A stretch of 64,000 nucleotides of DNA from Pseudomonadota bacterium. Its GTDB lineage: Bacteria; Pseudomonadota; Gammaproteobacteria; Steroidobacterales; Steroidobacteraceae. The position numbers and the translations under genes are program-made. The DNA lies in NCBI GenBank assembly GCA_021779535.1, contig JAJYAM010000002.1, positions 79,549 through 143,548 of the forward strand, read 5' to 3'. The notes under the pieces were generated by a model. That model saw nothing but the letters and a program-made list of their open reading frames with translations. It did not search any database and had not been told where the DNA came from. This document shows positions 29,367-31,551 of the stretch, one piece after another (the first letter of the stretch is position 1; every line of letters begins with the position of its first letter).

Positions 29367-30035
29367 TCAGGGGCCGGAGATCGCGATCCGCCGGACGCCG
29401 CCGTCCCCCGCGATCACCAGCTCGTCGGCGCCCCGCTGCGCGAACAATCCGACCGTGACGACCCCCGCGATCGCGTCGATGCGGGCTTCGAGCGCCACCG
29501 GGTCCTCGATCCGCAGGTTGTGCACGTCGAGGATCACGTTGCCGTTGTCGGTCACGAACCCCTGGCGCCAGACCGGTTCGCCACCGAGGGCGACCACGCG
29601 ACGCGCGACGTAGGAGCGCGCCATCGGGATCACTTCGATCGGCAGCGGGAACGTGCCGAGCACGCCGACCAACTTCCGGTCGTCGATGACGCAGACGAAC
29701 CGGGCGGACGCGGCCGCGACGATCTTCTCGCGGGTCAGCGCCCCGCCACCACCCTTGATCAACGCCCCTTGCGGCGTCGCCTGATCGGCGCCGTCGACGT
29801 AGAGCGGCAGGTCGCCGGCGCTGTTCAAGTCGATCTCGGGTATGCCGGTCTCGCGCAGGCGCGCGGAGGTCGCGGCCGAACTGGAGACCGCGCCGCGCAC
29901 GCGCACGCGACTCGCCCCGAGCGCGCCGATGAACTCGTCGACGGTCGAGCCGGTGCCGATACCGAGGACCATGTCGTCCTCGACGTAACGCAGTGCCGCT
30001 TCGGCCGCCGCCCGCTTCTTCGCGCGTGTGTCCAT
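29367..30035 (-). CDS. rpiA: Ribose-5-phosphate isomerase A
   Basis: RpiA, 222 residues, interconverts ribose 5-phosphate and ribulose 5-phosphate; with rpe at 24 kb it supplies the non-oxidative pentose phosphate pathway. Motifs: [34 protein letters not shown] and the C-terminal [17 protein letters not shown] 30035 has GAGGA 10 bases upstream. It lies behind the lysine-rich small gene and its terminator. Confidence 0.95.
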
Positions 30036-30049
30036 GATTTTCCGATCCT

Positions 30050-30085
30050 CAGAAACGACTGTGCCCGCTTTCGCGGGCACAGTCG
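30050..30085 (-). terminator. Intrinsic terminator after the lysine-rich small gene
   Basis: A perfect 13-base stem (30056-30068 with 30073-30085) closed on the minus strand by a GAAA tetraloop, followed by the short tract TTTCT. It begins 15 bases after the stop of the 21-residue gene and separates it from rpiA. The T tract is short, so termination may be partial, letting some transcripts continue into rpiA. Confidence 0.7.
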
Positions 30086-30100
30086 GTTCGATTCGAAGGC

Positions 30101-30166
30101 TTACTTCTTCTTGGCGGCCTTCTTCTTGGCTACCTTTTTCTTCGCCTTCTTTGCTTTCGCTGCCAT
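30101..30166 (-). CDS. 21-residue lysine/alanine-rich protein
   Basis: A tiny gene of 22 codons. The product has 12 Lys, 7 Ala, 1 Val and the initiator Met, in the pattern [16 protein letters not shown], like the tail of histone H1 or of AlgP/Hc1-type nucleoid proteins. Support for expression is unusually good: a near-consensus promoter at 30203-30230, GGAG about eight bases before ATG 30166, and a stem-loop terminator just downstream. Both AAA and AAG are used. It could bind DNA, RNA or ribosomes. No family assigned; homologues this short are rarely annotated. Confidence 0.7.
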
Positions 30167-30202
30167 GTTGAAAACTCCGTTGTCGGGTTAGTCCGGGGAC
30201 CG

Positions 30203-30230
30203 AGTATATACACGAATCATCAAAATTCAA
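30203..30230 (-). promoter_or_regulatory. Strong sigma-70-type promoter of the lysine-rich gene
   Basis: On the minus strand TTGAAT (30225-30230) and TATACT (30203-30208) are 16 bases apart in a very AT-rich spot. Transcription would begin near 30196 and give a 30-base leader with a ribosome-binding site. This is the best matching -35/-10 pair I found, together with that of the zapB-like gene. Confidence 0.75.
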
Positions 30231-30278
30231 GCAATACGTCACATCGAACCCGCGACGATGTGGTAGTCGAGCTCGCGT

Positions 30279-30743
30279 TCACTCGAGCGAGAGGATGAAG
30301 TCCCACTGCGTTTTCGTCACCGGCGTCACCGACAATCGGTTGCCTCGTCTCAGGATCAACAGGTCCTCGAGTTCACCGCGCGCGTACCGGCGCAGCTCCT
30401 GCAGCGTGATCAGCCGCGCGAGCTTGCGGACGAGACGCACGTCGACGGCGTACCAGCGCGGCGCGTCGGACGTGCCGATCGGATCGTAGTGGGCGTCCTT
30501 CGGATCGAACGCGGTCGGATCCGGATACGCTTCCCGGGCCACCTCGACGATTCCGGCGATGCCCGGCTCGGCGCAGCCGGAGTGGTAGAAGAACGCTCGA
30601 TCGCCCTTGCGGAATTCGTCGCGAAGCATGTTGCGTGCCTGGAAGTTGCGCACGCCGTCCCACGCGGTGACCTTGCGCGGCCGTGCGGCAAGGTCGTCGA
30701 TCCCGAAGGTCTCCGGCTCGGATTTCATCAGCCAGTGATTCAT
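30279..30743 (-). CDS. EVE-domain protein (PUA-like, thymocyte nuclear protein 1 type)
   Basis: A 154-residue EVE protein, a PUA-related fold that recognises modified bases in DNA or RNA. It has the family pattern HWLMKSEPETFGIDDL, WDGVRNFQARNMLR, FYHSGCAEPGIAGIVEV and PRWYAVDVRLV. Its ATG overlaps the fau stop (ATGA), which puts it at the end of the zapB-zapA-6S-fau unit. In bacteria stand-alone EVE proteins are thought to bind modified tRNA or DNA, but the role is not settled. Confidence 0.92.
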   Translation of the reverse strand: MNHWLMKSEPETFGIDDLAARPRKVTAWDGVRNFQARNMLRDEFRKGDRAFFYHSGCAEPGIAGIVEVAREAYPDPTAFDPKDAHYDPIGTSDAPRWYAVDVRLVRKLARLITLQELRRYARGELEDLLILRRGNRLSVTPVTKTQWDFILSLE

Positions 30744-31359: not shown

Positions 31360-31551
31360 TGGCGCCACCCGCCTGTGCCGTCTTGGACCGTTGCTCCCGA
31401 CCTGAGCAACAGGTGGGACCGTCTGAGGCAATTAAGGCTTTCCGCTCTGGGCGGACTTGCACAATGTTGCCCGCAAGACTCAAGTCCCTGGGGTTTACAA
31501 ATTAGGGTCGAGAGGTAACCCGATCCGCATCGAACACCGCAGGCGGCGCCA
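31360..31551 (-). ncRNA. ssrS: 6S RNA
   Basis: The gap between zapA and fau is the standard place of ssrS. On the minus strand the ends pair: TGGCGCC (from 31551) with GGCGCCA (to 31360), then GCCTG with CAGGC, giving a closing stem and a length of about 192, against 184 in E. coli. The AAGCCTTAA element and the TGTTCG near the 5' arm match the E. coli RNA. 6S binds the sigma-70 holoenzyme as an open-promoter mimic in stationary phase. Ends are estimates. It may be processed from the zapB-zapA transcript, as no separate promoter is clear. Confidence 0.75.

Follow-up and report, generated by a model that had tools for sequence, protein, structure and literature searches.

A frame of 21 lysine-rich codons (30101..30166, minus strand) in the window, that is, the whole 64-kb stretch of DNA analysed here, is selected as a protein. 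It is quite probably a genuine gene, encoding a free-standing polycationic peptide whose homology to longer histone-H1-tail-like proteins of Gammaproteobacteria is one of position and promoter. Its product is lysine and alanine almost throughout, with no acidic residue and no proline; the 57 percent lysine given in the first-pass annotation is borne out (12 of 21 residues). Within the window it is the only ORF of at least 15 aa with at least 40% lysine, and 60 simulated windows yielded none. The upstream neighbour is the gene of an EVE-domain protein (30279..30743, minus), the most widely shared flank, while rpiA, encoding ribose-5-phosphate isomerase A (29367..30035, minus), lies downstream. 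The gene order of the block is zapA - 6S - fau - EVE - lysine-rich gene - rpiA. The 6S RNA gene in the zapA-fau interval (ssrS; 31362..31548, minus; Rfam RF00013, 65 bits) overlaps the upstream part of the longest fau reading frame. The locus had also been described as a self-contained unit of 180 bases. All the parts listed are present, but the unit is not isolated, since rpiA starts only 20 nt past its stem.

We read EVE-anchored loci from 60 relatives and rpiA-anchored loci from public genomes. Fifteen distinct DNA sequences encode the same 21 residues in 20 loci of close relatives (congeneric). The coding sequence varies at 13 positions, each of them a third codon position, and every change is synonymous, at least 18 changes being required. 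With 20-29% of random changes synonymous, the neutral probability of this pattern is 3e-13 to 3e-10, an estimate that leaves aside codon-usage bias and phylogeny but has a large margin. The frame is therefore translated and under purifying selection, and the functional protein initially proposed is supported by exclusively synonymous variation. In the same genomes, the identity of the EVE protein falls to about 61%. The one interruption of the frame, an N gap in a congener (L019), is most likely an assembly join; otherwise we saw no change that breaks it. Loss of the frame with flanks and promoter retained, which the first-pass annotation had named as evidence against a protein, was looked for; the frame is conserved together with its flanks.

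Short versions of 15-27 residues occur in every member of the family (Steroidobacteraceae) with a readable locus. These differ by AKKK-type units and terminate in KKK-stop; the version at L153, counted as 40 residues from an upstream ATG, has about 25 when read from its MATKKK frame. R1, a sequence model covering promoter, leader and start codon, matched 182 of the 200 family genomes, including 111 of the 114 of good quality. The window genome was recovered at E 2e-18 with R1 and at E 4e-12 with a rebuilt model (R2), the window's own sequence being part of both. Draft assemblies often end or break in or beside the small gene (G021, C100/C58; G010, C52; G426, C82/C46; G526, C46; G544, C46/C320; G008; G017), as if the sequence were hard to assemble, and this can add to the gene being overlooked.

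Within the order, R1 matched 198 of 246 genomes. The other families of the order carry in the same place proteins of 94-195 residues built of Lys/Arg/Ala repeats, preceded by recognisably the same promoter and leader. Across the class, R1 matched 27 and R2 62 of 369 genomes, and in most other lineages the same promoter stands ahead of lysine-rich, histone-H1-like proteins of 58-200 aa, mostly between EVE and rpiA. A lysine-rich ORF followed the R2 match in 26 of the 28 inspected class matches absent from the R2 training set, some of the 28 coming from families represented in that set. Beyond the class, matches are few, weak and devoid of a lysine-rich ORF. The window locus has the features of this syntenic gene, namely the CTGG-AATTT ... 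TTGTATATACTC promoter, a GGAG-bearing leader that runs straight into an ATG-GC start, and a lysine-dominated ORF with almost no acidic residues beside EVE and rpiA. A distinct Gly/Arg/Lys-rich variant (MAKRKAKKTKVVAKKKKKAAVKKAARRGGRRKK...) lies near EVE and rpiA behind the same promoter in L036 and L085. One family, f15, contains both long forms (105-178 aa) and short forms of 20-24 residues (L169, L171, L172, L180). Shortening therefore occurred at least twice, assuming an ancestral long form, as the distribution of that form suggests; the f15 event is apparently independent, the other genera of f15 keeping 105-178 residues. The proposed kinship of short and long forms is drawn from synteny and promoter, low complexity making homology at the residue level unprovable.

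The promoter scan returned a single site, TTGAAT-16-TATACT (30230-30203, minus), against 0.2 expected by chance. This is the promoter originally proposed, with its -35 at 30225-30230 (minus, 16-bp spacer). Nevertheless, the relatives suggest shifting the -35 upstream by one base, to CTTGAA (30226..30231, minus) with a 17-bp spacer, because this hexamer aligns with the block CTGGAA(A)TTT conserved across the class, where the consensus is CTGGAA. The -10 element TATACT (30203..30208, minus) is inside a conserved CGTGTATATACTC block. From a start site placed at about 30196, the predicted 5' leader (30167..30196, minus) includes the conserved block CGGACTAACCCGACAACGGAG and the Shine-Dalgarno GGAG, which is found as first annotated (30175-30178, minus), 8 nt 5' of the ATG. 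Class-wide conservation goes beyond the hexamers, with CTGG(A/T)AATTT around the -35 and TTGTATATACTC around the -10, a pattern that suggests either a regulator or some unusual constraint on the promoter. A leader block, CGGACTAACCCGAC (30182-30196, minus), is noncoding, yet nearly invariant within the family. In L065, L067 and L076 the -35 block (CTGG-AATTT) is contained in a near-palindrome, CTGGAATTTTCCAG.

Downstream of the frame is a hairpin with a 13-bp stem, CGACTGTGCCCGC-GAAA-GCGGGCACAGTCG (30056..30085, minus), which resembles an intrinsic terminator, is present in one copy in the genome and has a covarying lower stem. The RNA folds far better than its shuffles (z -5.65). We collected 28 distinct short-family versions by their core, GCCCGC/GCGGGC, which is constant in all of them, so that the lower stem alone constitutes a test. 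It shows compensating pairs, with double changes at five pairs, and the covariation score of the hairpin is 0.178 versus 0.085 in shuffles, a level reached by none of 500; slid controls lie much lower. The terminator stem of 13 bp with a GAAA loop had been annotated at the outset; the hairpin is present, but the tail TTTCTGAGG after the stem is poor as a U tract. Long-form relatives and one f15 short form (L062, L065, L067, L169) share this stem, of the type GTGCCCGC...GCGGGCAC, and in them a T run follows it. The hairpin is therefore a terminator by descent, and the U tract has been eroded to TTTCTG in the genus of the window. With so weak a U tract, termination at the window hairpin is uncertain. 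A dispersed repeat or REP element was rejected, as exact hairpin matches occur once per genome (the palindrome matching both strands) and in family genomes only, those checked lying at the lysine-rich gene. A DNA operator palindrome was rejected too, since compensating pair changes in the lower stem and a loop of variable length fit RNA. Rfam, searched over 30000-30290 even at relaxed E, gave nothing credible.

In every locus of the order with an rpiA match, rpiA follows the lysine-rich gene at a distance of about 64-320 nt and on the same strand; the match is lacking in 12 loci of the order, nearly all with less than 500 nt of downstream sequence. In the window only 20 nt separate the stem from the rpiA start, which places the hairpin in the leader of rpiA as well, so that the expression of rpiA probably depends on read-through past the hairpin. 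We envisage strong transcription from a sigma-70 promoter into an RNA of about 140 nt, which would mostly stop at the hairpin, rpiA being supplied by read-through. In the class at large, the lysine-rich gene also occurs with no rpiA within about 1 kb (e.g., L077, L078, L084, L091), and therefore cannot simply be a leader of rpiA.

As for function, the peptide, with its 12 lysines, is most likely a polycation that would bind nucleic acid or another polyanion and act by charge density. By analogy with H1 and AlgP tails, it might bind DNA as a minimal nucleoid protein, or else RNA or polyphosphate. Homologues range in length from 15 residues to about 200, so selection seems to preserve charge density and not a given length or fold. 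Among the candidate polyanions we would place DNA first, RNA or the ribosome second and polyphosphate third. On a broader reading, which we put forward tentatively, this is a class-wide, undescribed gammaproteobacterial gene with an ancient promoter, whose histone-tail-like polycation was cut to 15-27 residues in at least two lineages. The outcome would be an encoded, polyamine-like counter-ion peptide devoid of a folded domain, maybe among the smallest chromatin-type proteins known.

Other explanations of the locus deserve consideration. The peptide could act on RNA or the ribosome, or on the adjacently encoded 6S RNA, rather than on DNA, in the manner of very small basic ribosome-associated proteins. 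Its composition would suit any polyanion, and the gene lies within the zapA-6S-fau-EVE block, of which EVE has been proposed as a reader of modified RNA such as 6S (PMC7641849). The long homologues, however, resemble HC2/H1-like DNA-binding proteins, and we regard an RNA or ribosomal target as rather unlikely. A small RNA as the object of conservation, the frame being incidental to it, might be argued from the high conservation of leader and hairpin and from the good fold of the RNA. But changes in the frame are exclusively synonymous and at third positions (P about 1e-10 or less), and relatives keep the frame through in-frame indels and a 10-fold change in length; the codon test rules this scenario out, and we attach practically no weight to it.

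In an alternative scenario, the frame would encode the leader peptide of an attenuator: ribosomes translating the lysine run, or stalling there, would govern the passage of polymerase through the hairpin into rpiA, and the peptide would be a mere by-product. The anatomy is the classic one: small ORF, terminator hairpin and rpiA are consecutive on one strand throughout the order, the terminator thus standing between leader ORF and structural gene, and rpiA has no room for a promoter of its own after the hairpin. Yet homologues reach about 200 residues, and the wider class has the gene with rpiA absent from the nearest 1 kb or so. Furthermore, every residue is kept, Ala and Val among them, whereas the lysine codons drift freely between synonyms, and no competing antiterminator was apparent on inspection of the predicted fold. 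Lysine supply also has no evident link to rpiA, which the lysine codons do not match. Overall, we judge attenuation improbable.

The lysine-rich gene provides a natural minimal model of how a disordered H1-like tail works, a syntenic gene cut from about 200 to 15-22 residues with promoter, leader and terminator kept. It also illustrates that length and low complexity can hide from gene callers a gene carried by almost all genomes of a family, and that the promoter is a better search handle than the peptide. In addition, the zapA-6S-fau-EVE-rpiA block gains an unnoticed member. The published ZapAB-6S RNA-Fau-EVE block is the same neighbourhood, and rpiA is named there as a frequent neighbour (Bell et al. 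2020, PMC7641849); a term search of that paper found no lysine-rich gene between EVE and rpiA. Searches of the open-access literature for lysine-rich small proteins, and for EVE, rpiA and histone, returned AlgP, Hc2 and the EVE context paper alone. In that literature, whose silence is no proof of absence, we found no description of the 15-27 residue forms, the syntenic family or its promoter; annotations of the long forms as histone-like proteins may well exist.

Among known protein families, Pfam and NCBIfam contained no match for the 21-mer. Two long homologues match Pfam HC2 (PF07382) with 37.4 and 32.9 bits (E 4e-9 and 9e-8), the curated cut-off being 40 bits. An HC2 genome scan gave no match in the window genome; in the syntenic stretch of another genome (G037) it reached 61 bits, with stops read through. 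These HC2 matches, mostly below the cut-off, may reflect composition only. Against the NCBIfam histone H1-like families NF038052 and NF038053 (cut-offs 135 and 80 bits), long homologues score at most 21.7 bits and the 21-mer not at all. By the Pfam and NCBIfam cut-offs the 21-mer is therefore not a member of the HC2 or H1-like families, nor is it an AlgP. We claim at most an H1-type, tail-like mode of working, and membership of the syntenic family defined here alone. The isolated H1 or AlgP tail that the first annotation saw in the peptide does find support in the longer syntenic K/R/A-repeat homologues, with their weak HC2/histone-H1-like similarity.

Among the closest parallels, the C-terminal KPAA tail of AlgP (AlgR3) from Pseudomonas aeruginosa is likewise rich in Lys and Ala, disordered, repeat-built and variable in repeat number; DNA binding is reported for peptides of this tail, and association with polyphosphate granules for AlgP itself (PMC9239181). 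AlgP is, however, defined by a helical N-terminal domain of 124 aa plus KPAA repeats (PMC9239181), whereas the 21-mer has neither another domain nor the proline of those repeats. The histone H1-like Hc2 (HctB) of Chlamydia also has lysine-rich repeats and length variation (165-237 aa, set by repeat number; PMC2848022), but the 21-mer does not match it, the long homologues fall mostly under its curated cut-off and the genomic setting differs. To the tail of the eukaryotic linker histone H1 the likeness is one of composition, with no homology shown and no winged-helix domain in the 21-mer. H1-like tails are a known kind of protein; new here are how extremely this one has contracted, its synteny across the class and the deep conservation of its promoter.
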